Source of the DNA: Teichococcus aestuarii
GTDB taxonomy: Bacteria; Pseudomonadota; Alphaproteobacteria; Acetobacterales; Acetobacteraceae
Assembly: GCF_003116135.1 (NCBI RefSeq)
Contig: NZ_PDOA01000001.1
Span: forward strand, 1 to 64,000
Direction: 5' to 3'
Length of the DNA: 64,000 nt
The notes under the pieces are model-generated. The model worked only from the letters and a program-made list of their open reading frames with translations, was not told the origin of the DNA and did no database searches. Positions 119 through 28,401 of this stretch are shown here, piece by piece. Position 1 is the first letter of the stretch, and every line of letters starts with the position of its first letter. The translations under genes and the position numbers were made by a program.

Positions 119-956
119 CAGGCCCTAGTGCGCCGCCAAACTCGAAAAGTCTTTTTGCTTCTTTTTCTTCAGAAAAAGAAGAAGCTGTCACCGCGAAGGG
201 CCGGAGCGTCACCGCCTCCCCCCGCCGCGCCACCAGCACATGGTTGGGCGGTATGGGCTGCCAGCCGGCGCCGCGCTCATCCACCGGCTCCGAGACCACC
301 ATCACGCCGCCGCAGCCCTCGCGCCAGTAGAGGGTGGGCGGGTGCGCGTCGGAGGACCAGCGGAAGCAGGTGAGGGTCTCGCCATCGCTGTGCGCGGCGG
401 CGAAGCGCAGCGGCGCGCGGATGCCGGCCTCTCGCATCATCCCCAGCACGCGGCCGAGGGTGCGGGAGAGGGCCGGGGCCGGCGCCTCTGCCAGCCCGTC
501 TGCCAGGGCGGCGAGGAACAGCGCCTCCGTGTCGCCCGTGCCCTGGCGGTGGGCGTAGAGCGAATCCGGGATCAGCGCCTCGATGCGCCGCTTGATGCGG
601 AGGTAGTCCCCCACCTGCCCGTTGTGCATGAAGAGCTGCCGCCCGTGGCTGAAGGGGTGGCAGTTGGCGCGCGTGGTGGAGGTGCCGGTGGAGGCGCGCA
701 CATGCGCGAAGAACAGGCGCGAGCGCACCTGGGCGCAGAGCGAGCGAAGGTTCTCGTCCGACCAGGCGGGGCGGATCTCGCGGTAGAGGCCCGGCTCCTC
801 CCGCTCGCCATACCAGCCGAGGCCGAAGCCGTCGCCATTGGTGGCGGTCTTGCCCTCGTCGGCGTGCATCGACTGGTGGATCAGCGAATGGCGCGGGGCG
901 CAGACGAGATCCGAGAGGAAGATGGGTTCGCCCAGATAGGCGAGGAAGCGGCACAT
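108..956 (-). CDS. Class II glutamine amidotransferase (YafJ-like), repeat-encoded tail
   Basis: This 282-residue protein starts MCRFLAY, so removal of Met exposes Cys2, the N-terminal nucleophile of type-II (Ntn) amidotransferases. Other family signatures are GDGFGLGWYG (about 41-50), the HVRAST block (85-90) and HNGQVGDY (111-118). No synthase domain follows, as in YafJ/DUG3-type proteins that hydrolyse glutamine or gamma-glutamyl peptides; the true substrate is unknown. YafJ-like proteins are usually near 255 residues. Here residues about 256-282 (including SSFSEEKEAKRLFEFGG) are encoded by the composite repeat and the edge of the IS, and the stop overlaps the transposase 3' end in antisense. 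The core is intact, so the enzyme is probably active. It lies downstream of pyrE on the same strand. Confidence 0.88.
   Translation of the reverse strand: MCRFLAYLGEPIFLSDLVCAPRHSLIHQSMHADEGKTATNGDGFGLGWYGEREEPGLYREIRPAWSDENLRSLCAQVRSRLFFAHVRASTGTSTTRANCHPFSHGRQLFMHNGQVGDYLRIKRRIEALIPDSLYAHRQGTGDTEALFLAALADGLAEAPAPALSRTLGRVLGMMREAGIRAPLRFAAAHSDGETLTCFRWSSDAHPPTLYWREGCGGVMVVSEPVDERGAGWQPIPPNHVLVARRGEAVTLRPFAVTASSFSEEKEAKRLFEFGGALGPVRA
131..181. repeat. Composite palindrome copy A (half element, next to IS end)
   Basis: The arms CTTCTTTTTC (158-167) and GAAAAAGAAG (172-181) form a 10-bp stem with loop TTCA. The stem is preceded by CTCGAAAAGTCTTTTTG and by one arm of a GC block (CGCCGCCAAA). 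The same AT hairpin and spacer occur at 7650-7694, 16284-16320 and 27859-27894. The second half of the composite is missing here and is replaced by the end of the IS. The hairpin is translated in the amidotransferase frame on the minus strand. Confidence 0.85.
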
Positions 957-7611: not shown

Positions 7612-7621
7612 CCGTGGGTTC

Positions 7622-7694
7622 GGCGCTGCGCGGATGAATGGCGCAGCGCCCAACTCGAAAAGTCTTTTTGCTTCTTTTTCTTCAGAAAAAGAAG
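7622..7694. repeat. Composite palindrome copy B (GC stem plus AT hairpin) between convergent genes
   Basis: A perfect 10-bp GC stem (GGCGCTGCGC 7622-7631, GCGCAGCGCC 7641-7650) is followed by CAACTCGAAAAGTCTTTTTG. Then comes the AT hairpin with arms CTTCTTTTTC (7671-7680) and GAAAAAGAAG (7685-7694). On the plus strand the GC stem is followed by T-rich sequence, as in an intrinsic terminator. It lies between the ankyrin gene and the racemase gene. Confidence 0.85.
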
Positions 7695-9244: not shown

Positions 9245-9276
9245 TCCCGCCTTCCTGCCGCCAAGGTCCCCTCTGC

Positions 9277-10107: not shown

Positions 10108-10220
10108 CACAGGCGCGCGCGGCGTGAGAATGAGGCTCAGCGCCGCGCTCCAGGCGCGGGGAGCGGTGTTAGCCTCCAGGCCGGCGGGGCAACCCGCCCG
10201 CCACCGCACAGAGAGACGAC

Positions 10221-10475
10221 ATGCTGAAGACGCTCGCCGCCACGGCCCTGATCACCCTCTCCCTCGTCCCCGCCGCCTTCGCCGCCTGCTCCCCCGATGA
10301 CGCCATGCTGAAGGCCTCCGCCATCGCCGAGGCCCTGGCCCCCAAGGCGCAGAGCAAGGCCGAGGCCGCCGCCGCCATCATGACCGAGATGAACGCCGCC
10401 GTCGGCGACGGCAACGTCACCGCAGCCACCTGCACCAAGCTCGACGCCCTGCTCGACCGGGCGAAGAAGCTGTAA
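10221..10475 (+). CDS. Small exported protein of unknown function
   Basis: This 84-residue protein has a clear Sec signal peptide (MLKTLAATALITLSLVPAAFA, cleaved after AFA) and a mature part of about 63 residues rich in Ala, Lys and Asp. Two cysteines (mature C2 and the C of ATCTKL) could form one disulfide in the periplasm. The amphipathic alanine-rich pattern suggests helices. No family is recognised. It stands alone after the TauE gene, with a composite-palindrome variant just after its stop. Confidence 0.75.
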   Translation: MLKTLAATALITLSLVPAAFAACSPDDAMLKASAIAEALAPKAQSKAEAAAAIMTEMNAAVGDGNVTAATCTKLDALLDRAKKL

Positions 10476-10484
10476 GACAGAGAG

Positions 10485-10551
10485 AAAAGTTCTTTTTGGG
10501 AAAAAGCCCCAAAACTTTTTCCCGCTGGCGCCCCGCCTTCCTGGCAAGGCG
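10485..10551. repeat. Composite palindrome copy E (variant half element) between convergent genes
   Basis: AAAAGTT (10485-10491) pairs with AACTTTT (10513-10519) around an inner CTTTTT/AAAAAG hairpin. A GC hairpin follows (CGCCTT 10534-10539, AAGGCG 10546-10551). Read on the minus strand, this is a GC stem followed by AAAAGTTTTGGGG and a T-rich hairpin. It matches the right-hand half of copies C and D with a few substitutions. It lies between the small exported protein and the GTPase gene. Confidence 0.7.
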
Positions 10552-10597
10552 AGGCGCGCACTGAAAGCAAAATGGGAAACAAGCGGGCGGCCTGGAA

Positions 10598-12172: not shown

Positions 12173-12223
12173 GCAGCCTTGCCTTGGGGCGTGACGCTAT
12201 CAAACTCCACGCAAAGGTCGAGG

Positions 12224-12991: not shown

Positions 12992-13004
12992 GCGGCGGCG
13001 CCGC

Positions 13005-14330: not shown

Positions 14331-14566
14331 CGAGACCCTGGGGATGCGGAATGCCAGGGCGCAGCCTCGCCCCGTTCCCCTTCCGGTTGCAAGGGCTGCC
14401 TGTGCCTTGCACAGAATGACCAAAGGGCCGGCGCCGCGCGGCCCGGGCCGGTGCGAAAAGCACCCCGCCGCGCCGCGCCGCCCCTGGACGCGGCCGGGGT
14501 GGCGGCGCAGGTTCCGCTCCTCGCGACGGGCGAGGATGAGGGGCGGCGGATGAGGGTTTGCGACAG

Positions 14567-15508
14567 GTGGTGACGCTACTGGTGAAGTCCGGCGGCGAGC
14601 AGGCCGTGCCGGACTGGCAGGAATGCTTCCGCGCGGTGGACCCGCGCATCACCGTGCGCTGGTGGGCCGACCCCGCCGTGCCGCCGGAGGCGGTGGACTA
14701 CGTCCTGGTGTGGGAGCCGCAGCATGGCTGGCTGGCGAGCCTGCCCAGGCTGAAGGCGGTGTTCTCCTCCGGCGCCGGCGTGGACCACATCACCTGCGAC
14801 CCGGCCTGGCCGCGCCACATCCCCCTGGTGCGCATGGGCGGCGAGGCGACGGCGCAGCGCATGGGCGAGTACATCCTCTGGTCCTGCCTCTCGCTGCTGC
14901 GGGACGCGCGGCACTTCGCGCTCGGCCAGGCGGCCGGCGAATGGCGCCACCGCGAGACGCGCCACTACGCCCAGGACCGCACGGTCGGCATCATGGGTCT
15001 CGGCAATCTCGGCGGCCACGCGGCGCGGATGCTGCAATCGGTGGGCTTCCCCGTGCGTGGCTGGGCGCGCTCGCGCAAGGACATCCCCGGCGTGCGGAGC
15101 TTCGCCGGCGCGGCGGAGCTGCCCGAACTCCTCGCCGGCACCGACATCCTGGTCTGCCTGCTGCCCTCGACGAAGGAGACGGAAGGGCTGATCGACGCCC
15201 GCCTGCTGGCGCAACTCCCACCGGGGGCGGAACTGGTGAATGCCGGGCGCGGCTCCCACCTGCGGGAGGCGGACCTGCTGGCGGCGCTGGACTCCGGCCA
15301 TCTCGCCGGTGCGGTGCTGGACGTGTTCGAGGAGGAGCCGCTGCCGCCCGGCAGCCCGCTCTGGGCGCACCCCAAGGTGACGGTGACGCCGCATGTGGCC
15401 TCCATGGCCAGCCGGCCGGAGCGCGCCCGCTACCTCGCCGGCGCCATCGCCGATTTCGAGGCGGGCCGCCCGCTGCCCAACCTCTACGACCCCGAGCGAG
15501 GCTACTGA
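14567..15508 (+). CDS. D-2-hydroxyacid dehydrogenase (glyoxylate/hydroxypyruvate reductase-like)
   Basis: This protein of about 313 residues has the NAD(P) motif GIMGLGNLGGHAARML and catalytic Arg in NAGRGSHL, Glu in DVFEEEPLP and His in TPHVASMASRPE, the classic Arg-Glu-His set. The family reduces glyoxylate, hydroxypyruvate or other 2-oxoacids. The usual GhrA-like length is about 310. No ATG is available: GTG at 14567 or 14570, with GAGGG (14552-14556) about 10 nt upstream, is the best choice, and TTG at 14558 is also open. Its stop overlaps the ATG of the class II aldolase by one base, so the two are co-translated. Confidence 0.88.
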   Translation: MVTLLVKSGGEQAVPDWQECFRAVDPRITVRWWADPAVPPEAVDYVLVWEPQHGWLASLPRLKAVFSSGAGVDHITCDPAWPRHIPLVRMGGEATAQRMGEYILWSCLSLLRDARHFALGQAAGEWRHRETRHYAQDRTVGIMGLGNLGGHAARMLQSVGFPVRGWARSRKDIPGVRSFAGAAELPELLAGTDILVCLLPSTKETEGLIDARLLAQLPPGAELVNAGRGSHLREADLLAALDSGHLAGAVLDVFEEEPLPPGSPLWAHPKVTVTPHVASMASRPERARYLAGAIADFEAGRPLPNLYDPERGY

Positions 15509-16278
15509 TGCCGCTGCCCCCGCCCCCCGTCCGCCCCGACCCCGCCCGCGCCCTCACCGAGCGCGAACTGCGCGAGGACCTCGCCTGCGCCTACCGGCTG
15601 CTGGCGCATTTCGGCATGACGGACCTCGTCTACACCCACCTCTCCGTGCGCATCCCGGGCGAGGGGCACCGCTTCCTGGTGAACCCCTACGGGCTGCTGT
15701 TCGAGGAGATCACCGCCTCCTCGCTCGTCGCCGTGGATGCGGAGGGCGAGCCGCTGCAGGAGACCGCCTGGCCGGTGAATCCGGCGGGCTTCGTCATCCA
15801 CTCCGCCGTGCACCGCGCGGTGGATCGGGCGCAATGCGTGATGCACACCCACACCCTGGCCGGCATGACGGTGGCGGCCCAGGCGGGGGGCCTGCTGCCG
15901 CTGAACCAGATGAACATGGAGCTGCACGACCGCGTGGCGGTCCACGAGTACGAGGGGATCGCGGCCGATGACAACCTCGCCGAGCGCGAGCGCATCGTGC
16001 GCGACCTGGGCGACAAGCCCTGCCTGATCCTGCGCAACCACGGGCTGCTGACCATCGGCCGCACGGTGGGCGAGGCCTTCTACTGGATGTACTACCTGGA
16101 GCAGTCCTGCCGCATCCAGGTGGCGGCGCAATCGACCGGCGCGCCGCTCTCCATGCCCTCGGCCGAGATGGTGGAGCGGGTGCGCGCCCAGGCGAAGGAC
16201 AGCCCGGTGAAGGGCTGGCTGCCCTGGCAGGCGCTGAAGCGGAAGATGGACCGCGAGCAGCCCGGATACCGGGACTGA
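15508..16278 (+). CDS. Class II aldolase/adducin family protein (copy 1)
   Basis: This 256-residue protein has the Zn-binding HTHT motif in CVMHTHTLAG (near 112-121) and the third His in ILRNHGLLTIG (near 180). These enzymes cleave or form aldols of phosphorylated sugars or act as decarboxylating or dehydrating enzymes. The substrate is unknown. Its closest relative in the window is the gene at 18353, with long shared stretches such as YRLLAHFGMTD/YRLVAHFRMTD. It is coupled by TGATG to the preceding hydroxyacid dehydrogenase, suggesting the dehydrogenase handles the product or precursor of the aldol step. Confidence 0.88.
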   Translation: MPLPPPPVRPDPARALTERELREDLACAYRLLAHFGMTDLVYTHLSVRIPGEGHRFLVNPYGLLFEEITASSLVAVDAEGEPLQETAWPVNPAGFVIHSAVHRAVDRAQCVMHTHTLAGMTVAAQAGGLLPLNQMNMELHDRVAVHEYEGIAADDNLAERERIVRDLGDKPCLILRNHGLLTIGRTVGEAFYWMYYLEQSCRIQVAAQSTGAPLSMPSAEMVERVRAQAKDSPVKGWLPWQALKRKMDREQPGYRD

Positions 16279-16283
16279 AGGAT

Positions 16284-16399
16284 CTTCTTTTTCTGAAGAA
16301 AAAGAAGCAAAAAGACTTTTCGGGTCTGGCGGCGCGCCCTCAACCGACGCACCGCCAGACTGACAAAAGTTTTTTGGTTCTTTTTTTCAAAAAAGAACC
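16284..16399. repeat. Composite palindrome copy C (full element), probable bidirectional terminator
   Basis: Three stems lie in order. AT hairpin 1 has arms CTTCTTTTTC (16284-16293) and GAAAAAGAAG (16298-16307). The GC stem is GTCTGGCGG (16324-16332) with CCGCCAGAC (16352-16360). AT hairpin 2 is GGTTCTTTTTT (16376-16386) with AAAAAAGAACC (16389-16399). The GC stem is flanked by AAAAAGACTTTT on the left and AAAAGTTTTTT on the right, which also pair with one G-U wobble. Both strands therefore read a GC hairpin followed by T-rich sequence. It lies between the converging aldolase and solute-binding protein genes. Confidence 0.9.
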
Positions 16400-16411
16400 C
16401 TTCTCAGTCTC

Positions 16412-18025
16412 TTACTTCCGCTCGACGTTCCAGAACACCGGCACCGTGGCCGGCAGCACGCCGGTCAGGTTGCTGCGCCAGGCCGACTTGGTGCGGAACT
16501 GCCCGGCATTGATGTAGGGCAGCACCTCGTAGGCGCGGGCATGCACGGCGTCGAGCAGAGTGCGGCGCTTGGCAGCATCCGGCTCCTCCCACCAGGCGCG
16601 GCGCAGCTCCTCCAGCTTCGCGTCGCAGGGCCAGCCGGTGAGGCCGCCCTCGCAGGGGCTGGCGAGATAGAGGTTGGAGAGCGGGCTGCCCGCGTCCAGC
16701 GCGTTGGCGATGGTGACGAACAGGTTCCAGCCGCCCTGGGCCGGCGGCTCGCGCCGGTTGCGGCGCACCGTCACGGTGGCCCAGTCCAGCGTCTGCACGT
16801 CCATGTTCATGCCGGCGCGCTTGAACTGCTCCGCCAGCACCAGGGTGGAGCCGTTGTTCAGCGGATTGTCAGCGCCGTTCAGGAACACCACGGGGCGGTT
16901 GTCGTAGCCGGCCTCGCGCAGCAGAGTGCGCGCGCGGCCGAGATCGGGGTCGCGCAGGCCCACGGCGCCGGCGGTGCTCTCCAGCGGCGTGCCGCACATG
17001 AAGTAGGCGGGGCAGTAGGGCACCTGGTCCTCGGCCGGGATGCCGAGGCCCTGCAGCACCTCCTTCTGGTCGATGGCGTGCAGCAGCGCCTGCCGGGCTT
17101 TCGGGTTGTCGAAGGGCGGCTGGGTGTGGTTGATGCGCAGCCACACCATGCTGCCCACCGGGTTGATCAGCCCGACGGTGACGCCGCGCGCCTTCTGCAA
17201 CAGCGGCAGCAGGTCCGGCGCCGGGTGCTCGACGAAGTCGATCTCGCCATTGCTCAGCGCGCTGGCGGCCACCGAGGCATCCGGCATGGCGAGCCATTCC
17301 AGCCGCTCCACCTTCACCACCTTGCCGCCGGCCAGGCCATCGGCCGGCTCGGCGCGCGGCGTGTAGGCCGGGTTGCGGCGATAGACGGCACGGTCGCCGA
17401 TGCGCCAGTTCTCGCGGTCCATGATGAACGGGCCGGAGCCGGTGGCATCGGTGATGGCGGTGGTGGCGGGGGTGTTCGCCACGCGCTCGGGCATGACGAA
17501 CAGCGCGCTTGCGGTGGAGCGCGCCAGCGCATCCGTCACCGGGCCGAAGGGGCGGGAGAGCTTCAGCTCGAAGCTGCGCTCGTCGATCACCTCGAGCGAG
17601 GCGGTGGAGGCGGCCAGCGCCTTGCCCACCACGTCGCGCTGGCCCCAGCGGCGGATCGAGGCCACCGCATCGGCCGCGCGCACCGGCGCGCCGTCATGGA
17701 ACAGCAGGCCCGGGCGCAGCGTGAAACGGTGCGTCATGGCATCGGCGGAGACGCTGTGGCTCTCCACCATCTGCGGCCGCGCGATGCCCTTGCCGTCCAC
17801 GGCGAAGAGCTGGTCGTAGACCATGAAGCCGTGGTTGCGCACGAAGGCGGCGGTGGAGAGCACCGGGTCGATGCTGGTCAGCTCGTTGCTGAGCACGACG
17901 CGCAGCGTGGCCTCGCGCGCGGGCGCCTGGGCGGCGGCCGGCGAGAGCAGCGCGGCGAGTGCGCCGGCCGCCAGAAGGCTTGCCCGCAGCGGCGCGGCCG
18001 CTACGGTGTGGAGACGGGAAAGCAC
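16412..18025 (-). CDS. ABC transporter solute-binding protein, family 5 (peptide/opine/nickel type)
   Basis: This protein of about 537 residues has an N-terminal Sec signal (hydrophobic run about 10-33, ending PAAAQA) and the SBP_bac_5 fold. Marks include an SIDPVLSTAAFVRNHGFMVYDQLF start, LRPGLLFHDGAPVRAADAVASIRRW, and a QALLHAIDQKEVLQGLG segment. Family members deliver di- and oligopeptides, opines, glutathione or other amino compounds. The frame extends upstream, but the GTG at 18025 with AAGGA near 10 nt upstream starts just before the signal peptide. It is divergent from the aldolase/ABC operon, sharing a 327-nt control region, and may be an alternative receptor for that transporter. Confidence 0.88.
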   Translation of the reverse strand: MLSRLHTVAAAPLRASLLAAGALAALLSPAAAQAPAREATLRVVLSNELTSIDPVLSTAAFVRNHGFMVYDQLFAVDGKGIARPQMVESHSVSADAMTHRFTLRPGLLFHDGAPVRAADAVASIRRWGQRDVVGKALAASTASLEVIDERSFELKLSRPFGPVTDALARSTASALFVMPERVANTPATTAITDATGSGPFIMDRENWRIGDRAVYRRNPAYTPRAEPADGLAGGKVVKVERLEWLAMPDASVAASALSNGEIDFVEHPAPDLLPLLQKARGVTVGLINPVGSMVWLRINHTQPPFDNPKARQALLHAIDQKEVLQGLGIPAEDQVPYCPAYFMCGTPLESTAGAVGLRDPDLGRARTLLREAGYDNRPVVFLNGADNPLNNGSTLVLAEQFKRAGMNMDVQTLDWATVTVRRNRREPPAQGGWNLFVTIANALDAGSPLSNLYLASPCEGGLTGWPCDAKLEELRRAWWEEPDAAKRRTLLDAVHARAYEVLPYINAGQFRTKSAWRSNLTGVLPATVPVFWNVERK

Positions 18026-18352
18026 GGGCGGGAATCCTTCTCGCGGCGGATGGCGGAATGCCAGTCGGCGCCACAGGATTGCAGGAATCGCGCCAGAGGG
18101 GAGGGGAGCGCGGTGGATTTCATTCCGCTCGCTTGCAACCGCCCGCAACTCCGTCTATTCGGTCAGGTATCGCAGGGCGGGCGGCGCGGATTTGCTGCGC
18201 CGCACAGCAATGCCTGTGAAGCGGGCGCGCGATGCAGGGATTTGCTTGCAGGGCAGGCAGATCGCCTTTTGCTGCGCCGCAAACATCCTCACACCCTGTT
18301 GACGCGGCGCCGGCCGGCTGATGACATTCCCCTAACCTGAGGGGAGTTGGTC
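18026..18352. promoter_or_regulatory. Divergent control region with a repeated operator-like site
   Basis: This 327-nt intergenic region separates the solute-binding protein gene from the aldolase operon. The 14-mer TTTGCTGCGCCGCA occurs twice (18191-18204 and 18268-18281). The second copy extends to TTTGC-N6-GCAAA, a short palindrome. The sites are 77 bp apart, about seven helical turns, as in looping operators. A third partial match (ATTTGCTTGCAGG) lies at about 18239. No coding sequence is apparent. Promoter boxes cannot be assigned with confidence. Confidence 0.5.
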
Positions 18353-19129
18353 ATGAATATCGCCACGCCACCCGCGCGCCTCGCCTGTTCCGAGGAAGAG
18401 TGGCGCGTCCGCTGCGACCTCGCCGCGCTCTACCGGCTGGTCGCGCATTTCCGCATGACCGACTTCATCTACACGCACATCAGCGCGCGCGTGCCGGGGC
18501 CGGAGCACCACTTCCTCATCAACAAGTACGGCGTGCTGTTCGACCAGATGCGCGCCAGCGACCTGGTGAAGATCGATCTCGACGGCAACGTCGTCGAGGG
18601 CGACGCCGAGAGCAAGCCGGTGAACGCGGCGGGCTTCACCATCCATTCCGCGCTGCACATGGCGCGCGAGGACGCGGTGTGCGTGGTGCACACCCACACC
18701 GCCGCCGGCATCGCTGTCTCGGCGCAGAAGCACGGGCTGCTGCCGATCAGCCAGCACGCGCTGAAGTTCTACGGCCACCTCGCCTATCACGGCTATGAGG
18801 GCGTGGCGCTCGACCTCGACGAGCGGGACCGGCTGGTGGCCGACCTCGGCGAGCACAAGGCGATGATCCTGCGCAACCACGGCCTGCTGGTGGCCGGGCG
18901 CAGCATCCCCGAGGCGTTCAATTTGATCTACTACCTGGAGCGCGCCTGCCAGGCGCAGGTGGCCGCCCTCTCCGGCGGCGCCGAGCTGGTGCTGCCGCCC
19001 GAGGAGGTGCGCCTGAAGACCGCCGCCCAGTTCAACGGCGACCCGCAGCGCTCCCTCGCGCACAGCGAATGGGCCTGGGGCTCGGCGCTGCAGCTGATCG
19101 AGGGCTCGAAGCTGGACTGGCGCGCATGA
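18353..19129 (+). CDS. Class II aldolase/adducin family protein (copy 2)
   Basis: This 258-residue protein has Zn ligands in VVHTHTAAG (HTH) and ILRNHGLLV, as in class II aldolases such as fuculose- or ribulose-phosphate aldolase-type enzymes. The C-terminal QFNGDPQRSLAHSEWAWGSALQLIE is longer than the phosphate-specific members, which suggests a different substrate. The start at 18353 has GGGGAG at 7 nt; an upstream GTG at 18347 is less likely. It is the first gene of a probable seven-gene operon running to 27849 and overlaps the next gene as ATGA. It is clearly paralogous to the gene at 15508. Confidence 0.88.
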   Translation: MNIATPPARLACSEEEWRVRCDLAALYRLVAHFRMTDFIYTHISARVPGPEHHFLINKYGVLFDQMRASDLVKIDLDGNVVEGDAESKPVNAAGFTIHSALHMAREDAVCVVHTHTAAGIAVSAQKHGLLPISQHALKFYGHLAYHGYEGVALDLDERDRLVADLGEHKAMILRNHGLLVAGRSIPEAFNLIYYLERACQAQVAALSGGAELVLPPEEVRLKTAAQFNGDPQRSLAHSEWAWGSALQLIEGSKLDWRA

Positions 19130-20802
19130 GCGCCGACCTGCTGATCACCGGCGGCCGCATCTTCCGCGGCCTCTCGGGAGGCTTCGCCGAGGCGCTCGCC
19201 GTGAAGGACGGGCGCGTGCTGGCGGTGGGTCCGGCGGATGCGGTGGAGGCCCATGCGGGCGCCGCCACGCGCCGCATCGACCTTGGCGGCCGCGTGGCCA
19301 CCCCGGCGCTGAACGAAGCGCATATGCACCTGCTGCCCTATGGGCTCGGCCTCTCCCAGGTGAACCTCCGCGCCGAGGACAATGTCCGCTCGCTGGACGA
19401 GATCCTGAAGCGCGTCGCCACCGCCGCGCGCGAGACGCCGAAGGGCGGCTGGATCCTCGGGCGCGGCTACGACCATGGCGAGCTGGATGTCGGCCGCCAC
19501 CCGCTGGCCGAGGAGCTGGACCGCGTGGCGCCGGACCATCCGGTGTTCCTGACGCGCACCTGCGGCCACGTGGCCGTGGCCAACAGCATGGCGATGAAGC
19601 TCGCCGGCGTCGGCCACAACACGCCGGACCCCGAGGGCGGCGCCATCGAGCGCAAGGGCGGGCGCCTCACCGGCCTGTTCCAGGAACGCGCGATGCGGCT
19701 GGTGCGCGACATCATGCCGCCGCCCTCCGAGACGGAGATGGTGGCCGCCATCGAGAAGGCCGGCCAGAACCTCGCGGCCCTCGGCTTCGCCTCGGCCAGC
19801 GACATGAATGTGGGCATGACGGCGGGCCTCGCCGAGATCGCCGCCTATCGCCGCGCCGCGGCCGAGGGGAAGCTCGGCCAGCGCATGTGGCAGGTGCTGG
19901 CGGGCAACCCCGAGGGCATCGCGAAGCAGGCCTGGGAGGCGGGGCTGCGCCCCAACATCTCCGCCGGCGCCACGGCCGATGAGATGCTCGCCTGGGGCGC
20001 CGTGAAGGTGTTCGGCGACGGCTCGGCCGGCGGGCTGACGGCCGCCTTCTTCGACCCCTACCTGGAGAGCGCGGGCGGCGGCACCGGCATCTTCTGCTTC
20101 CCCGACAGCGCGATGCAGGAAATGCTCGGCCACTACCACCGCCAGGGCTGGCAGCTCGACATCCACGCCATCGGCGATGCCGCCATCGAGCAGGTGCTGG
20201 TGGCGATGGAGATGGCAGACAGCGAGGGCGCGCCGCTCGCCGGCCGCCGCCACCGCATCGAGCATTGCGGCTTCCTCAATGCCGCGCAGCGGAAGCGGAT
20301 GCTGGCGCATGGCATCCTGCCGGTGCCGCAGCCGGTGTTCATGTACGAGTTCGGCGACCTCTACGTCCGCAACCTGGGGCGCGAGCGCGCCGAGGTGGCC
20401 TACCCGATGCGCACCTGGCTGGAGGAGGGGCACCACCCCGCCGCCTCGTCCGACAGCCCCGTCTGCACGGTGGACCCGTTCATCAACCTGTTCACCATGG
20501 TCACCCGCAAGACCAGCCGCGGCACCGTGCTGGGCGAGGGCGAGAGGCTGACGCCGGAGCAGGCCATGCACTGCTACACCTGGTGCGGCGCCTACAGCCA
20601 GTTCGCCGAGGCCGAGCGCGGCACGCTGGAGCCGGGCATGCAGGCCGACATCGCCATCTTCTCGCGCGACCTTCTGGCCTGCGCGCCGGAGGAGATCCTG
20701 ACCACCCAGGCGGACCTCACCTTCCGCGGCGGGCGCGTCATCTTCGACCGCCACGGCGAGGCCGCCGCGGCCGATGACGCCCTGGCCGGAGCTGCGAACT
20801 AA
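19126..20802 (+). CDS. Amidohydrolase family protein, YtcJ-like
   Basis: This 558-residue metal-dependent hydrolase has an N-terminal beta-sandwich start (SADLLITGGRIFRGLSGGF) and the HxH metal site in NEAHMHLLPYG. A QLDIHAIGDAAIEQVL segment and the C-terminal ASSDSPVCTVDP supply further metal and catalytic residues. The form matches the large amidohydrolase-3/YtcJ group. Members hydrolyse amides or deaminate, but few are characterised, so the substrate is not assigned. It starts inside the stop of the aldolase gene (ATGA), indicating coupled translation within the transport/catabolic operon. Confidence 0.87.
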   Translation: MSADLLITGGRIFRGLSGGFAEALAVKDGRVLAVGPADAVEAHAGAATRRIDLGGRVATPALNEAHMHLLPYGLGLSQVNLRAEDNVRSLDEILKRVATAARETPKGGWILGRGYDHGELDVGRHPLAEELDRVAPDHPVFLTRTCGHVAVANSMAMKLAGVGHNTPDPEGGAIERKGGRLTGLFQERAMRLVRDIMPPPSETEMVAAIEKAGQNLAALGFASASDMNVGMTAGLAEIAAYRRAAAEGKLGQRMWQVLAGNPEGIAKQAWEAGLRPNISAGATADEMLAWGAVKVFGDGSAGGLTAAFFDPYLESAGGGTGIFCFPDSAMQEMLGHYHRQGWQLDIHAIGDAAIEQVLVAMEMADSEGAPLAGRRHRIEHCGFLNAAQRKRMLAHGILPVPQPVFMYEFGDLYVRNLGRERAEVAYPMRTWLEEGHHPAASSDSPVCTVDPFINLFTMVTRKTSRGTVLGEGERLTPEQAMHCYTWCGAYSQFAEAERGTLEPGMQADIAIFSRDLLACAPEEILTTQADLTFRGGRVIFDRHGEAAAADDALAGAAN

Positions 20803-20806
20803 CACC

Positions 20807-21748
20807 ATGCTGCGTCATGTTTTCCAGCGCCTGCTGATGACGGTGCCCGTGATGTTCGGGGTGCTGCTCATCGGCTTCCTGCTGATGCAGGTGGTGCCGA
20901 CCGACCCCGCCATCGTCCGCGCCGGCCCCACCGCCACCGCCGAGCTGGTGCAGGAGATCCGGCGCGAGCTGGGCCTCGATCAGCCGCTCTACGTGCAGTT
21001 CGGCATCTATCTGTGGCGCCTGCTGCAGGGTGATCTCGGCGTTTCCATCATCAACAACGTCGCCGTCACCCAGGAGCTGGGCGGCACCATCGGCCCGACG
21101 CTGGAGCTGATGTTCGCCTCGCTGTTCTGGTCGATCCCGATCGGCATCGCGCTCGGCACCATCGCCGCCTACTGGCGCGGCTCGGTGCTGGACCGCTTCG
21201 TCACCGCCCTCTCGGTGGCGGGCGGCTCGGTGCCGGTGTTCTTCCTCGGGCTCATGCTGATCTGGTTCGTCGGCTTCCAGTGGCAGTGGCTGCCCTTCAC
21301 CGGGCGCGGCGGGCCGCTCTGGACGGTCGAGGGCTGGCGCTCCATCGCGCTGCCCGCGCTGACGCTGGGCGGCGTGTTCATCGCCCCCGTGGCGCGCATG
21401 ACGCGCACCGCCGTGCTGGAGGTGCTGGGCGCCGAGCATGTCCGCACCGCCCGCGCCAAGGGGCTGAGCGAGAGCGCCGTGGTGCTGCACCACGCGCTGC
21501 GCAACGCGCTGATCCCGGTGGTCACGCTGATCGGCCTGCAGATCGGCTTCCTGCTCGGCGGCGCGGTGGTCACCGAGACGGTGTTCTCCTGGCCGGGCGT
21601 CGGCCGGCTGGCTGTGGGCGCGATCCTGTCCTCCGACTTCCCGATGGCGCAGGGCACCATCATCGTGCTCTCGCTGGGCTTCATTCTCGTCAACCTCGTG
21701 GTCGATGTGCTCTATGTGGCGCTCGATCCGCGCATGCGTGGAGGCTGA
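20807..21748 (+). CDS. ABC transporter permease, DppB/OppB type
   Basis: This 313-residue inner-membrane permease has about six transmembrane helices, beginning LMTVPVMFGVLLIGFLLMQ. The cytoplasmic EAA loop reads VLGAEHVRTARAKGLSE with the conserved Gly, the contact site for the ATPases. A VVTETVFSWPGVGRL segment is typical of the DppB family. It forms the pore with the next gene. The start at 20807 lies 4 nt after the preceding stop with only a weak ribosome site, consistent with translational coupling. Confidence 0.92.
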   Translation: MLRHVFQRLLMTVPVMFGVLLIGFLLMQVVPTDPAIVRAGPTATAELVQEIRRELGLDQPLYVQFGIYLWRLLQGDLGVSIINNVAVTQELGGTIGPTLELMFASLFWSIPIGIALGTIAAYWRGSVLDRFVTALSVAGGSVPVFFLGLMLIWFVGFQWQWLPFTGRGGPLWTVEGWRSIALPALTLGGVFIAPVARMTRTAVLEVLGAEHVRTARAKGLSESAVVLHHALRNALIPVVTLIGLQIGFLLGGAVVTETVFSWPGVGRLAVGAILSSDFPMAQGTIIVLSLGFILVNLVVDVLYVALDPRMRGG

Positions 21749-21750
21749 GC

Positions 21751-22644
21751 ATGGCCGGCGCGAATTCCGTGGCGGCCACCGCCGCCACGCCGGTCCAGCC
21801 CACGGCGCCGCGGCGCCCGGGCATGCTGAAGCGGCTTCTGCGCGAGCCGGTGGCGGCCTTCGCCTTCGTGCTGGTGGTGGCGCTGGTGCTGGCGGCGCTG
21901 CTGGCGCCCTGGCTGGCGCCGACCGACCCCTTCGACAACGACCTGGCCAACGCCATGGCGGTGCCCGGCACCAACGGGCTGCTGCTCGGCGCCGACAGCC
22001 AGGGCCGCAACATGATCACCCGGCTGCTCTACGGCCTGCGCATCACCATGATGATGGGGCTGGCCTCGGTGCTGCTGGGCGGTGGCATCGGCGCCCTGGT
22101 GGGCTTCGCCGCCGCCTATTACCGCCGCATCGACGGGCTGCTGATGCGGCTGATGGACGTGCTGCTGTCCTTCCCCGCCATCCTGTTCGGCCTCGCCATC
22201 GCCGCCATCTTCGGCCCTGGCGTGCCGGCGGTGGTGCTGGCGCTCTCGGTGGCCACGGTGCCGCTGATGGCGCGCATCGTGCGCGGCGCGGCGCTGGTCA
22301 TCATGCGGCAGGACTACATCGAGGCGGCGCGCGCCACCGGCATGAACGATGCCCGGCTGATCCTGCGCCACCTGGCGCCCAACTGCCTGTCGCCGATCTT
22401 CGTCTTCGCCACGCTGCGCTTCGGGCAGGTGATCCTGCTCGGCTCGGCGCTGTCCTTCCTCGGCCTCGGCGCGCAGCCGCCGGTGGCGGAGCTGGGCGCG
22501 ATGGCGTCCGAGGGGCGCAACTTCCTGTTCTTCGCCCCGCACATCGCGGTCATCCCCTGCGTGCTGATCTTCGTGGTGGTGCTGGCCTTCAACGTGCTGG
22601 GCGACGCGCTGCGCGACGCGCTGGACCCGCGCCTGCGGGTCTGA
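21751..22644 (+). CDS. ABC transporter permease, DppC/OppC type
   Basis: This 297-residue inner-membrane permease has a cytoplasmic N-terminus and about six transmembrane helices. A periplasmic LLGADSQGRNMITRLLYG motif marks DppC-type proteins (usual form: GTDxxGRD). The EAA loop reads IEAARATGMNDARLILRHLAPN. It pairs with the DppB-type protein just upstream. GGAGG lies 7 nt before the ATG, so the start is secure. Confidence 0.92.
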   Translation: MAGANSVAATAATPVQPTAPRRPGMLKRLLREPVAAFAFVLVVALVLAALLAPWLAPTDPFDNDLANAMAVPGTNGLLLGADSQGRNMITRLLYGLRITMMMGLASVLLGGGIGALVGFAAAYYRRIDGLLMRLMDVLLSFPAILFGLAIAAIFGPGVPAVVLALSVATVPLMARIVRGAALVIMRQDYIEAARATGMNDARLILRHLAPNCLSPIFVFATLRFGQVILLGSALSFLGLGAQPPVAELGAMASEGRNFLFFAPHIAVIPCVLIFVVVLAFNVLGDALRDALDPRLRV

Positions 22645-22734
22645 CGCGCCAATGAGGCGGCCCGGCCCCGCGCCGGGCCGGAGGCTTCGGATAACAGGCC
22701 CGCGCGGATGCGACGGGCCGATGGGAGAGAGTGG

Positions 22735-24327
22735 ATGAAGAAGACCCTGGGGGCCGCGCTGCTGTCGCTGGCCGCGACCGTCCCGGTGGCGGATGCGCTG
22801 GCGCAGGCCGCGCCGCGCGACACGCTGGTGGTGCTGCGCGAATACGACGCCGACCGCTACGACCCGGCGCGCTCCACCGCGCGCAGCGCCGGCGAGGTCA
22901 TCTACATGATGTCCGACACGCTGGTCTCGCTCGACTTCGACCAGAAGACGGTCAAGCCCGGCCTGGCCGAGAGCTGGACGGTGAGCGAGGACGGCAAGCT
23001 CTACACCTTCAAGCTGCGCCGGGACGTGACGTTCTGCGACGGCAAGAAGATGACGGCGGCCGACGTGGTCTACTCGATCAACCGCTGGGTGGCGCCCGAG
23101 ACGCGCAGCCCGGTGAAGTGGCGCGCCGGCCCGCTCAAGGAGATCCGCGCCACCGACGACTACACGGTCGAGTACGAGCTGAACGAGCCCTATGGCGAGC
23201 TGCTCTACCAGCTGACGCTGTTCTTCGCCTCGATCGTTGACAAGGAGTCGGTGGAGAAGCTCGGCGCCAATTTCGGCGTGCAGGGCTTCAACGGCACCGG
23301 CCCCTATTGCTGGCAGTCCTGGACCCCGCGCCAGGACCTGGTGCTGACCAAGCACCCCAACTACACCTGGGGTCCGCCGATCTACCAGAACCGCAGCCCG
23401 CAGATCGGCAAGGTGATCTGGCGCATCATCCCCGAGGCCAACACCCGCCTCGCCGCGCTGCAGACGGGCCAGGGCGACATCACCCAGTACGTGCCGCCCT
23501 TCGCGGTCGCGCAGCTGCAGCGCCTGCCCACCATCAAGATGTCGACCCAGCCGAACTACTTCTGGGACTACTTCCTGGGCTTCAAGGTGGACAAGCCGGT
23601 GGTCAACGACCCCGCCATCCGCCAGGCCGTGAACATGGCCGTCAACCGCGAGGCGCTGGTCAAGGCCGTGTTCTTCGGCGCCGCCGAGCCGGCCGATGCC
23701 TATGTCAACCCCAACACGCTGGGCTATGACGCCGAGGCCGCCAAGCTGGTGCCGCAGTTCAACGCCGACGCCGCCCGCAAGGTGCTGGACGAGGCGGGGT
23801 GGAAGCCCGGCGCCGACGGCATCCGCGAGAAGGGCGGCGAGCGCGCCTCCTTCAACGTCTATGGCATCCAGACCGCCGAGTGGCGCCGCATGACCGAGGC
23901 GATGCAGGCCGACCTGCGCCGCGTTGGCATCGACCTGCGCATCCAGCTCTGGGACGCGACGGTGGCCTGGGGCAAGCTGGCGACGCAGGAGTTCGACAGC
24001 TTCGTGATGTCCTACCCCTACATCTCGGCGACCGACGGCTTCGCCCTCTACTTCGACGGCGCCAACCGGCCGACGCCGAACCGCATGAACTGGAACGACG
24101 AGGCGACCAACAAGCTGCTCAACACCGCCAAGACCGCGCTCTCCGCCGAGGAGCGCGCCAAGGCGATCGCCGAGGTGCAGAAGATCGTCGCGCGCAACAA
24201 CGTCTGGTTCCCGATCGCGCGGGAGAGCCTCTACCTCGCCGCGGCGCAGCGGGTGGAAGGCGCCAAGGCGCACGGCCTCTATGGCGCGGGCCTCTACAAG
24301 GGCCTCGACCTGCGGCTGACGCGCTGA
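22735..24327 (+). CDS. ABC transporter solute-binding protein, family 5
   Basis: This 530-residue periplasmic receptor has a signal peptide of about 23 residues (MKKTLGAALLSLAATVPVADA then LAQ). Core SBP_bac_5 features are DPARSTARSAGEVIYMMSDTL, LRRDVTFCDGKKMTAADVVYSINRW and RQAVNMAVNREALVKAVFFG. Aromatic residues around the predicted cleft (WGPPIYQNRSPQ, YFWDYFLGF) suggest an organic ligand. As the receptor inside the operon it is the likely main partner of the permeases. The start is preceded by GGGAGAGAG. Confidence 0.92.
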   Translation: MKKTLGAALLSLAATVPVADALAQAAPRDTLVVLREYDADRYDPARSTARSAGEVIYMMSDTLVSLDFDQKTVKPGLAESWTVSEDGKLYTFKLRRDVTFCDGKKMTAADVVYSINRWVAPETRSPVKWRAGPLKEIRATDDYTVEYELNEPYGELLYQLTLFFASIVDKESVEKLGANFGVQGFNGTGPYCWQSWTPRQDLVLTKHPNYTWGPPIYQNRSPQIGKVIWRIIPEANTRLAALQTGQGDITQYVPPFAVAQLQRLPTIKMSTQPNYFWDYFLGFKVDKPVVNDPAIRQAVNMAVNREALVKAVFFGAAEPADAYVNPNTLGYDAEAAKLVPQFNADAARKVLDEAGWKPGADGIREKGGERASFNVYGIQTAEWRRMTEAMQADLRRVGIDLRIQLWDATVAWGKLATQEFDSFVMSYPYISATDGFALYFDGANRPTPNRMNWNDEATNKLLNTAKTALSAEERAKAIAEVQKIVARNNVWFPIARESLYLAAAQRVEGAKAHGLYGAGLYKGLDLRLTR

Positions 24328-24353
24328 ACCACGGACAGGGAAGGGCAGGGGAC

Positions 24354-25787
24354 ATGACCACCACCGTCATCCGCAACGCCGACCTGGTGATCGCCTGGGA
24401 CGCGGCCGAGAAGCAGCACATCTATCTCACGGATGCGGAGGTGGCCTATCGCGACGGCCAGATCACCTTCGTCGGCCGCGGCTATGACGGCCCGGCGGAC
24501 GAGGTGATCGACGGCAAGGGCATGATGGTCATGCCCGGCCTCGTGAACATCCACTGCCACCCCTCCAGCGAGCCGATGAACAAGGGGCTGATCGACGAGA
24601 TCGGCTCCCCCGGCCTCTACAATTCCTCGCTCTACGAATACATGCCGATCTTCCGGGCCGATGCGGAGGCGGTGCCCTCCTGCGTCCGGGTGGCACTGTC
24701 GGAGCTGCTGCTCTCCGGCGTCACCACGGTCGCCGACCTGTCCATGGCGCATCCCGGCTGGCTCGACCTGCTGGGCGAGAGCGGCATGCGGGTCTGCATC
24801 GCGCCGATGTTCCGCTCGGCGCGCTGGGCCACCAAGAACGGCCACACGGTCGAGTATGCCTGGGACGAGGCCGCCGGCGAGAAGTCGATGGCCGAGGCCT
24901 TCAGCCTGATCGAGCGCGCCGAGCAGCACTCCTCCGGCCGCCTCTTCGGCATGGTGGTGCCGGCGCAGATCGACACCTGCTCGGAAACTCTTCTGCGGGA
25001 GAGCTTCCAGGAGGCCGCGAAGAGAAATCTCTCCTGGCAGATCCACGCGGCGCAGAGCGTCCACGAGTTCCACGAGATCACCCGCCGCAGCGGCTTCACG
25101 CCGATCGGTTGGCTCGACAGCATGGACCTGCTCTCCGAGCGCTCGATCATCGGCCACGGCATCTTCCTCGACGACCACCCGCGGACGAAGTGGCACACCG
25201 AGAACGACCTGGATCGCCTCGCGGCGACGGGGACCACGGTGGCGCATTGCCCCACCGTGTTCGCCCGGCGCGGCATCGCCATGCGGTCCTTCGGGCGCTA
25301 CCGCAAGCGCGGCGTCAACATGGGCGTCGGCACCGATACCTATCCGCACAACATGCTCGACGAACTGCGGCTGGTCTCCTACCTCGCGCGCACCCAGTCC
25401 GAGGACCCGCGCAGCCTCTCCTCCACCGACCTGTTCGACGCGGCGACCATCGGCGGCGCGACCGCGCTGAACCGTGACGATATCGGCCGGCTCGCCCCGG
25501 GCTGCCGCGCGGATTTCGTCATGGTGGACGTGACCCACCCGCAGATGCGCCCCGCCCGCGACCCGATGCGCAGCCTGATCTACGCCGCGGGCGACCGCGC
25601 CATCCGCTCCGTCCATGTCGACGGCCAGGCGGTGGTGCGCGACGGCAAGGTGCTGACCATGGACTACGAAGGCGCGGCCGCGCATCTGGACGAGGCGCAG
25701 AAGCGCATCGTCGCCCGCGCGCCGCAGCAGGACTGGGCGCACCGCCCGGTCGACAAGATTTCCCCTCCCACTTTCCGATGGGCGTGA
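24354..25787 (+). CDS. Amidohydrolase family protein (cytosine deaminase/TRZ-ATZ type)
   Basis: This 477-residue protein has the deaminase-type amidohydrolase arrangement: HCH in [11 protein letters not shown], His in [12 protein letters not shown], His in [10 protein letters not shown], and the catalytic Asp in [10 protein letters not shown]. This set is used by guanine, cytosine, S-adenosylhomocysteine and s-triazine deaminases or chlorohydrolases, which bind one Fe or Zn. Position in an ABC uptake operon suggests it attacks the imported nitrogenous compound after entry. The start has AGGGGAC upstream. The stop overlaps the next gene. Confidence 0.88.
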
Positions 25788-26788
25788 TGCAGCCGGATCT
25801 TCTGCGTATCGAGGGCCTTCGCACGGTCTTCAAGACCTCCTCCGGCCTGGTGCGTGCCGTGGACGGCATCGACCTCTCCGTGCCGCGCGGCAAGACGCTG
25901 GGCATCGTGGGCGAGAGCGGCTGCGGCAAGTCGATGCTGTCGCTCTCCATCATGCGGCTGGTGCCGCCCCCCGGCCGCACGGTGGAAGGCCGCGTGCTGC
26001 TGGAGGGGCGCAACCTGCTCGACCTCTCCACCGCCGAGATGCGGCAGGTGCGCGGCGGGCAGATCGCCATGATCTTCCAGGAGCCGATGACCAGCCTCAA
26101 CCCGGTGCACAGCGTCGGGCGCCAGCTGACCGAGGCGATGCATGTGCACTCGCCGGGGCTCAACGCCTCGGCGCTGAAGGACAAGGCGATCGCGGCGCTG
26201 AAGCGCGTGCGAATCCCCTCGCCGGAGCGGCGCTTCGACGAGTATCCGCACCAGCTCTCGGGCGGCATGCGGCAGCGCGTGATGATCGCCATGGCGCTGG
26301 CCTGCGAGCCGCGCCTGCTGATCGCCGACGAGCCGACCACCGCGCTCGACGTGACGGTGCAGGCGCAGATCCTCGACCTGCTGCGCGAGTTGCAGGCCGA
26401 TACCGGCATGTCCATCATCCTCATCACCCACGATCTGGGCGTGGTGGCCGAGATGGCGGATGAGGTGGCGGTGATGTACGCCGGCAAGGTGGCCGAGCGC
26501 GCCACCGCCCGCGAATTGTTCGAGGACCCGCAGCACCCCTACACGCTGGGCCTGCTCGGCTCCGTGCCACGGCTGGACGAGGAGCGGGAGCGGCTGCTGG
26601 CGATCGACGGCAGCGTGCCGCCGCCCTTCGCCTTCCCCGAGGGCTGCCGCTTCAACCCGCGCTGCCCCTTCGCCATCGCCCCCTGCCGGGCGGAGCTGCC
26701 GCCGCTGCGCGAGATCACGCCCGGCCATCAGGCGGCCTGCATCCGCGCCCCCGTCGAGAACGCCCTGTCCCTGGAGAGCGCAGCATGA
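25778..26788 (+). CDS. ABC transporter ATPase, DppD/OppD type
   Basis: This 336-residue ATPase has Walker [10 protein letters not shown], the Q-loop in [12 protein letters not shown], the ABC signature [15 protein letters not shown], and Walker [14 protein letters not shown] with the switch His in ILITHDLG. The C-terminal cysteine-containing [14 protein letters not shown] block is the oligopeptide-ATPase domain that in some members holds an FeS cluster. ATG at 25778, within the previous gene, or 25787, overlapping its stop, are both possible. It overlaps the next ATPase as ATGA. Confidence 0.93.
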
Positions 26789-27849
26789 GCCCCCTGCTGG
26801 AAGTCTCCGGCCTGGCCAAGCACTACCCGGTGAAGAAGGGCGTCATCGTCCAGAAGCAGGTCGGCACGGTGCGCGCCGTCGACGGCGTCTCCTTCCATGT
26901 GAACCGCGGCGAGACGCTGGCGCTGGTCGGCGAGAGCGGCTGCGGCAAGTCCACCACGGCGCGTCTGGTGCTGCGGCTGATCGAGCCCTCCGCCGGCACC
27001 ATCCGCTTCGAGGGCAAGGACGTGACGAAGGTGGAGGGGGGTGCCATGCGGCTGCTGCGGCGGCGCATGCAGATCGTCTTCCAGGACCCCTATGCCAGCC
27101 TCAACCCGCGCCTGACGGTGGGCGACGCCATCGCCGAACCGATGGTGGTGCACAACATCGGCGACAATGCCAGCCGCCGCGCCAAGGTGCATGAGCTGCT
27201 GCGGCTGGTGGGCCTCGCGCCCTTCCATGCCGAGCGCTACCCGCACGAATTCTCGGGCGGGCAGCGGCAGCGCATCGGCATCGCCCGCGCCCTCTCGGTC
27301 GAGCCGGACCTGGTGGTGTGCGACGAGCCGGTCTCGGCGCTCGACGTGTCGATCCAGGCGCAGGTGGTGAACCTCATGAAGGATCTCCAGGCCCGGCTCG
27401 GCCTGTCCTACCTGTTCATCGCGCACGACCTCGCCGTGGTGAAGCACATGGCGGACCGCATCGCCGTCATGTATCTCGGCGCGGTGATGGAGATCGGCGA
27501 CAAGGGCGCGCTGTTCGCCAATCCGCGCCACCCCTATACCCGTGCCCTGCTCGCCGCCATCCCGCACCCCGACCCGGCGCGGCGCGGCCGCGTCACCCCC
27601 TTGGGCGGCGACGTGCCGAGCCCGATGGCGGTGCCGCCGGGCTGCCGCTTCCACACGCGCTGCCCCTTCGCGCAGGCGCGCTGCAAGCAGGAAGTGCCGG
27701 AACTCCGCGAGATCACCCCCGGCCAGCGCGTGGCCTGCCACTTCGCCGAGACGCTGCCCGACCCGGGGCTGGACTATACGGGCGGCCTGACGGAGGCGGC
27801 GACGAAGCGCCTCGCCCTCTACGACGCCGCGCGCCGGAAGGCGGCGTGA
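26785..27849 (+). CDS. ABC transporter ATPase, DppF/OppF type
   Basis: This 354-residue ATPase has Walker [11 protein letters not shown]-loop [11 protein letters not shown], signature [15 protein letters not shown], Walker [14 protein letters not shown] and switch His in FIAHDLA. The C-terminal [16 protein letters not shown] block matches the oligopeptide-ATPase extension. With the gene before it, it completes the two-ATPase, two-permease, one-receptor peptide-type transporter. It is the last gene of the operon and is followed directly by composite palindrome copy D. Confidence 0.93.
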
Positions 27850-27858
27850 GGTAAGTCC

Positions 27859-27972
27859 CTTCTTTTTCTGAAGAAAAAGAAGCAAAAAGACTTTGCCAGT
27901 TTGGCGCCGCGCTCTCCGCCAGCGTGTCGCCAACTGACAAAAGTTTTTTGGTTCTTTTTTCCAAAAAAGAAC
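27859..27972. repeat. Composite palindrome copy D (full element), probable bidirectional terminator
   Basis: It has the same architecture as the copy at 16284. AT hairpin 1 is at 27859-27868/27873-27882. The GC stem is AGTTTGGCG (27898-27906) with CGCCAACT (27928-27935), with one bulged T. AT hairpin 2 is at 27951-27960/27963-27972. The AT parts are nearly identical to copy C, but the GC stem is a different sequence that still self-pairs. It lies between the converging ABC ATPase and thioesterase genes. Confidence 0.9.
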
Positions 27973-27975
27973 GTC

Positions 27976-28401
27976 TCACTTCTTCAGGCTCAGTTCCTCC
28001 AGCGCCGCCCGCACATCCGCCGGCAGCGGCGTGGAGCGGCGGGTGGCCGCATCCACCAGCACCACCACCCCATCCCCCGTGGCCGAGCACATCTCGCCCT
28101 GGAAGACGCCCTGCCCGGTGGTGAAGGAGCTGCGCCCGATGCCGGTGATGGCGGTGCCGATGCGGATCGGTCCCAGCTCCTGCATCTCCGCCAGGTAGTC
28201 GATGCTCATGCGGGCCAGCACGAAATAGGTTTCCGGCCCGCGCAGCAGGCGCTGCATCAGCTCGACGCGCGCCGTCTCCAGATAGGTGCCATAGACGGCG
28301 TTGTTCACATGGCCCAGCCGGTCCGTGTCGCCGAAGCGGATGCGCTCCTCTGTCCAGAGGGGGTAGGCGCCGGCATTCCGCAGCATCGGGTCGTTGGGCA
28401 T
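27976..28401 (-). CDS. Acyl-CoA thioesterase, 4-hydroxybenzoyl-CoA thioesterase (hot-dog) type
   Basis: This 141-residue hot-dog-fold protein has the 4HBT-I signature RFGDTDRLGHVNNAVY, with catalytic Asp27 in D-x-x-G-H. Such enzymes hydrolyse acyl-CoA or aryl-CoA thioesters in the cytoplasm. Length and the LETARVEL helix are standard. The substrate is unassigned. It lies downstream of lpxB on the same strand with a 24-nt gap and may belong to that transcription unit. Confidence 0.9.
   Translation of the reverse strand: MPNDPMLRNAGAYPLWTEERIRFGDTDRLGHVNNAVYGTYLETARVELMQRLLRGPETYFVLARMSIDYLAEMQELGPIRIGTAITGIGRSSFTTGQGVFQGEMCSATGDGVVVLVDAATRRSTPLPADVRAALEELSLKK

Follow-up and report, generated by a model that had tools for sequence, protein, structure and literature searches.

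Small dispersed repeats that resemble terminators, or that gather where genes converge, have been described in several bacteria. The nearest in kind to the repeat considered here appears to be SPRITE of Streptococcus pneumoniae. As described in PMC3049150 (publications are cited here from excerpts, and statements resting on them extend no further), SPRITE copies are small, interspersed and AT-rich compared with their own genome. Each has a stem and a long U-rich tract, and copies are strongly enriched between convergent genes, near 3' ends. In the same excerpt, no similar insertion sequence (IS) ends were found, target duplication was not established, and no mobiliser was identified. In all these respects SPRITE is like a repeat that we describe from Teichococcus aestuarii, a member of the Acetobacteraceae. 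The repeat was noticed in positions 1 to 64,000 of contig NZ_PDOA01000001.1 (assembly GCF_003116135.1), a stretch of 64,000 nucleotides that we call the window. Other systems share some of its features. Paired DNA uptake sequences, of Neisseria and Pasteurellaceae, are also repeated terminator hairpins with tail-to-tail enrichment (PMC1852404). Repetitive extragenic palindromes (REPs) and bacterial interspersed mosaic elements (BIMEs) are dispersed palindromes, mainly between convergent and co-directed genes (PMC3733652). Miniature inverted-repeat transposable elements (MITEs), among them Correia elements, RUP and BOX, are likewise small, with inverted-repeat ends and lineage-specific amplification (PMC3049150).

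To our knowledge, mapping of transcript ends has been poor in alphaproteobacteria of very high GC content. Among the literature matches listed, from open-licence PMC articles, there was no description of this repeat in Roseomonas or Acetobacteraceae. An initial, sequence-only reading of the window had proposed five copies of an AT-rich composite palindrome, all between converging genes or elements, and had suggested an amplified family of terminators acting in both directions. Our analysis indicates that this is probably right in outline. We consider it likely that the repeat is a family of composite, two-way intrinsic-terminator elements that mark gene 3' ends, and that has been amplified in, and as sampled is limited to, the Acetobacteraceae.

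Results

Conserved arms surround a variable core

A complete copy is about 115 bp long. In the plus-strand copy at 16284..16399, delineated by sequence, motif scan, alignment and folding of both strands, the order is AT hairpin (H1), A/T tract, GC core, A/T tract and second AT hairpin (H2). Motif scanning and spacer typing, with alignment for H1 and a census for H2, place the arm hairpins at 16284..16307 and 16376..16399. The first has C outermost and a 7-nt spacer, the second G outermost and a 6-nt spacer. The H1 hairpin, CTTCTTTTTC-TGAA/TTCA-GAAAAAGAAG, occurs in the window at 158-181, 7671-7694, 16284-16307 and 27859-27882. The H2 hairpin, GTTCTTTTTT..AAAAAAGAAC, occurs at 16376-16399 and 27950-27973. 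The window has a GC content of 72%, within which these hairpins are AT islands.

Alignment of 34 full copies gave mean identities of 99% for the left arm and 95% for the right, compared with 63% for the core, and all 34 cores were different. The arms form mutually complementary inverted-repeat ends, of the kind found in MITEs, according to the alignment and folds of ten copies. Note that the two arms are not equivalent. In T. aestuarii, 26 of 30 arm pairs have C outside and a 7-nt spacer on one arm with G outside and a 6-nt spacer on the other, and the 7/6 combination of spacers is present in 70 of 91 pairs taken from all groups. Exceptions are mainly IMG/VR contigs (6/6 in 11 of 22) and the genus g65 (5 of 14). 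In a separate scan, all 35 paired T. aestuarii copies were H1-H2, while 12 of 24 pairs on IMG/VR contigs scored as H2-H2.

Folding of the cores was compared with controls in which shuffled cores were placed between the same arms. A hairpin ended at most 3 nt from a U tract in 31 of the 34 full copies for forward transcripts, and in 30 for reverse transcripts, compared with 30% and 64% of controls. Requiring also a minimum free energy of -15 or below left 27 and 28 of the 34 copies, against 11% and 31% with shuffled cores. Mean hairpin energies were -22.5 (forward) and -25.2 (reverse) kcal/mol; the shuffled equivalents were -12.9 and -14.7. In the ten copies whose folds were inspected, pairing between the A/T tracts extends the GC stem. 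After the U run come GG or GC and then a second U-rich run, which belongs to the far AT hairpin. Cores from other genera, though unlike in sequence, fold too: of 87 cores drawn from all groups, 66 have z below -1. The window contains no Rfam match at gathering score.

Copies lie close behind stop codons

In the 5.2 Mb genome we found the H1 hairpin at 43 places, where a reversed-pattern control found none, and the H2 arm at 31 places with up to 3 mismatches. Stretches around these matches contain 47 distinct elements (from 48 rows, one element having appeared on both strands). Three are at contig or IS edges and the other 44 have both neighbours called; gene calls are from our own script rather than a standard caller. 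By neighbours, 32 are convergent, 12 co-directed (tandem) and none divergent. The background, which includes some gaps with elements, was 392 neighbour pairs in 464 kb: the window plus the initial 200 kb of each of contigs C30 and C41. These pairs were 65 convergent, 259 tandem and 68 divergent. Convergent enrichment is therefore marked (Fisher P=3e-14, or P=4e-15 against gaps of at least 75 bp).

Distances are short. From stop codon to hairpin edge the median is 7 bp and the maximum 39 bp (54 distances, full copies). The 32 convergent gaps with an element are 78-171 bp long; without one, 34 of 42 convergent gaps, at the loci of the placement census, are 73 bp or less. Among the 12 tandem copies, taken in the direction of the genes, H2 comes first in 8 and H1 in 4. 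Long A or T runs (at least 6) number 47 in the 464 kb, of which 20 are within 130 bp of such hairpins, 25 elsewhere between genes and 2 in genes. Since 12 of 44 placements are tandem, the idea that every copy lies between converging genes is too strong, and "just behind a stop codon" fits better. Placement in large numbers within genes or upstream of promoters would have spoken against terminators and was not observed in T. aestuarii: besides the lack of divergent placements, one fragment lies in an open reading frame (ORF).

Elements in other genomes are likewise found at gene ends, but mostly at tandem sites. The congener G006 has 15 convergent, 13 tandem and 1 divergent among 29 (convergent enrichment P=5e-5), and 12 of its 13 tandem copies are closer to the preceding stop codon than to the start that follows. 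On plasmids of Pseudoroseomonas cervicalis, the deposited annotation puts one copy exactly in a convergent gap and one in a tandem gap. Across genomes, 104 places (10 from T. aestuarii; stretches from other genera were picked at known arms) comprise 55 tandem, 35 convergent, 8 edge, 4 divergent and 2 inside ORFs. The 94 places outside T. aestuarii account for all 4 divergent cases and 1 of those inside ORFs.

A predicted stop for transcription in both directions

Anatomy and placement suggest that the element terminates transcription. Transcribed from either side, the core would form a hairpin ending at most 3 nt from a run of U4-6, after which the second U-rich run would be the near half of the far AT hairpin. 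Because either transcript gives a hairpin and U tract, and then more U-rich sequence, RNA polymerase should stop both ways. Most likely, polymerase arriving from either gene would halt at the element, and neither transcript would enter the opposite gene, with the far half of each AT hairpin serving transcription in the other direction. This model fits the convergent excess and the absence of copies from diverging gaps in T. aestuarii. Selection may retain copies where a stop is useful.

Several results weigh against such a simple account. A simple terminator scan of positions 1-20000, which permits loops of 3-8 nt only, called one decayed copy (at 10494) and no full or half copies. Core halves from the same copy did not pair significantly better than halves swapped between copies (265 of 5000 shuffles were as good, and 612 of 5000 for the basal stem). 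An RNAalifold consensus fold lacked two-sided changes, although this consensus is uninformative, probably because the variable core aligns poorly. In g65, 10 cores have a mean z of -0.77, barely better than shuffles. Enrichment between convergent genes did not reach significance in g65 (5/18), g55 (3/13) or g107 (4/15), and all three have more tandem than convergent copies. In T. aestuarii both arms are retained in 12 of 12 tandem copies, though a terminator is needed in one direction alone. Similarly, the arms are the most conserved part, yet one-way intrinsic termination has no need of the far half of the downstream AT hairpin. Hence, something beyond one-way termination seems to hold the arms. 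Nor does a stop, by itself, explain why arms are alike across genera while cores drift; a factor that recognises the arms, or spread as a unit, would do so. Finally, neither a clean empty site nor a shared target duplication was found. The proposal of a two-way terminator is thus backed by anatomy on both strands, relative to shuffled cores, and by placement behind stops; it is not helped by the simple scan, or by core pairing that is not significantly specific to each copy.

The repeat is amplified in some species and not in close relatives

Allowing at most 1 mismatch, the arm was detected in 81 of 395 Acetobacteraceae genomes, representing 31 of 84 genera, and in none of 285 genomes from other families of the class; the one hit in the search of that wider set was T. 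aestuarii itself. Numbers of arms vary widely, from 0 to 303 per genome in the genus of T. aestuarii and from 0 to 199 in g65; five sampled genomes of g87 have 217-294. Between genera the arms are alike, some to the letter, while the cores look unrelated. These data, with 47 copies in one genome, strongly support the earlier suggestion of an amplified family.

Database records outside these genomes were also matched. Among plasmid collections, two P. cervicalis records match the repeat. An E. coli plasmid record, with a 32-base A/T-rich match, was discounted as a family copy. A Microviridae record from cattle blood (L282, MG945182.1) has, at 5908-5941, a 34-base exact match to the H2 arm, intergenic and behind a GC-rich palindrome. 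Some contigs filed as viral have at least 3 copies (L092, L100, L102, one 31-kb IMG/VR contig, and L110); they may be phage or misfiled host DNA.

The element is not conserved at orthologous junctions. We compared 11 of the 44 T. aestuarii gaps with the nearest relative, G005 (L029:4982 was omitted, having another neighbour there); the comparison covered about 400 kb of G005 and the matches of two further searches. None of the 11 junctions holds an element in G005, where the gaps are 0-67 bp and the genes mostly 86-93% identical. It follows that many sites gained or lost the element outright. Among other congeners, the junctions are occupied in 2 of 4 cases for G006 (one full element, one lone arm) and 1 of 2 for G010 (a half form). 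They are without an element in G015 (0/3), G008 (0/2), G009 (0/2), G011 (0/1) and G012 (0/1). Depending on the congener, one and the same junction can be empty, contain just a GC hairpin or contain a different composite family.

Copies may have spread as a unit, as judged from arms kept as an unequal pair and from a single recent, exact copy whose limits are the hairpin edges. The latter is on IMG/VR contig L090, which by its arm spacings belongs to G138, in another genus. Two copies, 5.5 kb apart, are identical at 119 of 119 bases, and beyond the hairpins the identity extends 0 bp to the left and 2 bp to the right. This would reflect either copying of the unit or conversion of one copy by the other. 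More generally, the family could have spread by transposition in trans, leaving no target duplication, or by conversion among terminators already in place. At the edges of the 34 full copies, 30 have no direct match and 4 have unrelated matches of 2-5 nt, so that the target duplication typical of MITEs is not seen. No Y1 (RAYT, REP-associated tyrosine) transposase was found in the T. aestuarii genome, and one weak match was found in 1 of 17 genomes of the genus.

Much of this might be expected of a selfish, MITE-like repeat that is mobilised in trans, tolerated behind stop codons and purged where it blocks transcription, its resemblance to a terminator being incidental. Such a repeat could account for arm numbers between 0 and about 300 in one genus, relatives' junctions that are unoccupied or different, and conserved arms around a free core. 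It would also suit the lasting distinction between left and right arms, the hairpin-bounded copy in L090, and a precedent: pneumococcal repeats and IS elements have the same convergent bias, for which the excerpt of PMC3049150 offers a tolerated-repeat reading. The lack of a shared target duplication counts against it, as does the absence of a Y1 transposase (other transposases, and an autonomous partner, were not systematically searched for). Furthermore, copies sit a median of 7 bp from stop codons with, by eye, no older intergenic sequence beside them, and the geometry of hairpin and U tract is maintained on both strands. We regard an incidental resemblance as possible, with the balance of evidence tipped the other way.

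A second alternative is concerted evolution, in which fixed, old terminators were homogenised by gene conversion and copies were not newly inserted. Three observations are in keeping with this. In a comparison of 50 cores, 33 of the 34 from T. aestuarii had another T. aestuarii core as their nearest neighbour. In G006, G010 and G015 as well, the 3' end of the right-hand gene of L029:13355 carries the family, with other partners and different cores. Lastly, T. aestuarii and G006 have one junction in common, in decayed form. Fixed sites are hard to square with the element's absence from all 11 junctions compared in the nearest relative, and we consider this account unlikely. The odds given to the rival readings overlap, because function and route of spread are separate questions.

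Other roles for the element are less probable

The repeat might instead be a DNA topology element: between converging genes, where positive supercoils meet, it would offer GapR or gyrase an AT-rich landing pad. Of 17 genomes of the genus, 16 encode a GapR domain, T. aestuarii among them (the miss is a 71% complete genome), and the excerpted PMC8360656 reports that in E. coli and yeast the GapR signal is enriched between convergent genes. Together, these make a topological role a reasonable rival, and AT islands in 72% GC DNA would suit it. However, GapR is present in congeners with 0 or 300 arms alike, and AT content alone does not predict GapR, according to the same excerpt. Geometry of hairpin and U tract, and arms conserved almost to the letter, would also go unexplained, and we rate this role as improbable. 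As improbable is an mRNA 3'-end stabiliser or REP/BIME-like element, with hairpins that block exonucleases: position at 3' ends and stable hairpins in both transcripts (ten copies) are compatible with it, but such a role needs no long U tracts, and the REP/RAYT origin was rejected since the consensus has no GTAG or CGTC end and the genome no Y1_Tnp domain.

Individual copies in the window and nearby repeats

Two copies in the window have the full arrangement of AT hairpin, GC stem and AT hairpin, and in both the hairpin edges are 3-13 bp from the converging stop codons. That at 16284..16399 lies between a plus-strand gene with a class II aldolase domain (15508..16278; PF00596) and a minus-strand gene for an SBP_bac_5 solute-binding protein (16412..18025). 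The other, at 27859..27972 (+), was defined by sequence, motif scan, alignment and fold, and has the same orientation. Its neighbours encode an ABC transporter ATPase with an oligopeptide-transporter C-terminal region (26785..27849, plus strand) and a thioesterase-like protein (27976..28401, minus strand). These four genes were called by our script and assigned with Pfam.

The remaining three places depart from the full form. According to sequence and motif scan, the minus-strand copy at 7622..7694 is a half form. It consists of a GC hairpin (7622-7631 with 7641-7650) and one arm, with the H1 hairpin at 7671-7694, and has no H2 arm. The matching junction in G006, where the left and right genes are 70% and 85% identical, holds a full element. 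The sequence-only reading also counted 10485-10551, where our motif scan found neither hairpin within 4 mismatches. This is a decayed relative in a convergent gap (10476..10597), with a degenerate AT arm and then a GC core, recognised by sequence and by alignment with L243:18316. It agrees with a cleaner element at the corresponding G006 junction in 138 of 198 alignment columns, within 2.9 kb of surroundings that are 82% identical, and the two GC cores resemble each other.

The place at 131..181 (-) is a fragment, identified from sequence, with an H1 arm and part of the core, cut by an apparent IS end. In our reading, the preceding bases resemble an IS transposase 3' end. A minus-strand ORF at 108-956 reads straight through the fragment; for this reason a convergent setting is not shown here, as it is for the other window copies. 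The ORF is glutamine amidotransferase-like, and the fragment supplies its C-terminal residues. In window positions 1-130 and at L013:12900-13064, near two contig ends, the core is cut beside what seems to be one and the same IS end (AAGCTCTAACAGGCC), with CTAG or TTAA after it. It is as if the IS preferred the repeat core as an insertion site.

Related arrangements were encountered elsewhere. At L237:14934-15112, in G006, three slightly differing tandem repeats of a core module (GCGTCCCGCTGTGCCGGGAGACGGCGGCAGCCTGAAAAAA) lie behind a single arm. There is also a second composite family that has the same plan in other letters, its outer hairpins being GC (GGCCGGGGGAAGGAATTCCCCCGG..ACCCCCATCTT..CTGTCAG and its mirror). 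It occurs at L195:19061, L193:14683 and L204:13912 in the T. aestuarii genome, at L074 and L075 in congeners, and in convergent gaps of several congeners. Another dispersed repeat (AAAGTCTTTTCCGTTCGTACTGGCTCACGGAAAAGGCTCTAG...) is found at L032:4200-4308 and L195:6462-6646, and its first copy is matched in G010.

Discussion

We favour a two-way intrinsic terminator that has multiplied as a family, and a bolder version of this can be put forward tentatively. The unequal arms could be left and right ends, recognised by a family-specific factor that copies the arm-core-arm unit behind stop codons without target duplication. Native terminators would then have been overwritten at perhaps hundreds of gene ends in some species. 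The core would be free to vary, only its hairpin mattering. If the arms turn out to be recognised by a factor, the repeat would be a mobile element with termination itself as its cargo.

In some species, the repeat marks gene ends to within a few bases on both strands and is absent from the same junctions in a close relative. Such a contrast would serve as a natural experiment on the origin, spread and replacement of terminators, and on what convergent genes need. The repeat also offers compact two-way terminators for GC-rich hosts.

Comparison with known systems defines what is particular to the family. DNA uptake sequences are about 9-11 nt long and generally have at least 1000 copies (PMC1852404, as excerpted), whereas the Acetobacteraceae repeat is about 115 bp long, with 43 exact hairpin places and 47 elements. 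Unlike MITEs, it has no shared target duplication and no related IS is known, none having been systematically searched for. SPRITE is closer, being a terminator-like repeat enriched between convergent genes, just as the T. aestuarii elements are (32/44 compared with 65/392). However, SPRITE belongs to other bacteria and, in the excerpt of PMC3049150, is described as a repeat in which a U-rich tract comes after an 18 bp duplex and the ends are AAAA/TTTT. In the Acetobacteraceae repeat, a variable core is instead enclosed by a pair of AT hairpins of about 24 bp, and the element looks two-way; the contrast with SPRITE is drawn from this description. Double-hairpin arms, a two-way build and asymmetry between the arms are what distinguish the family from known amplified terminator-like repeats.

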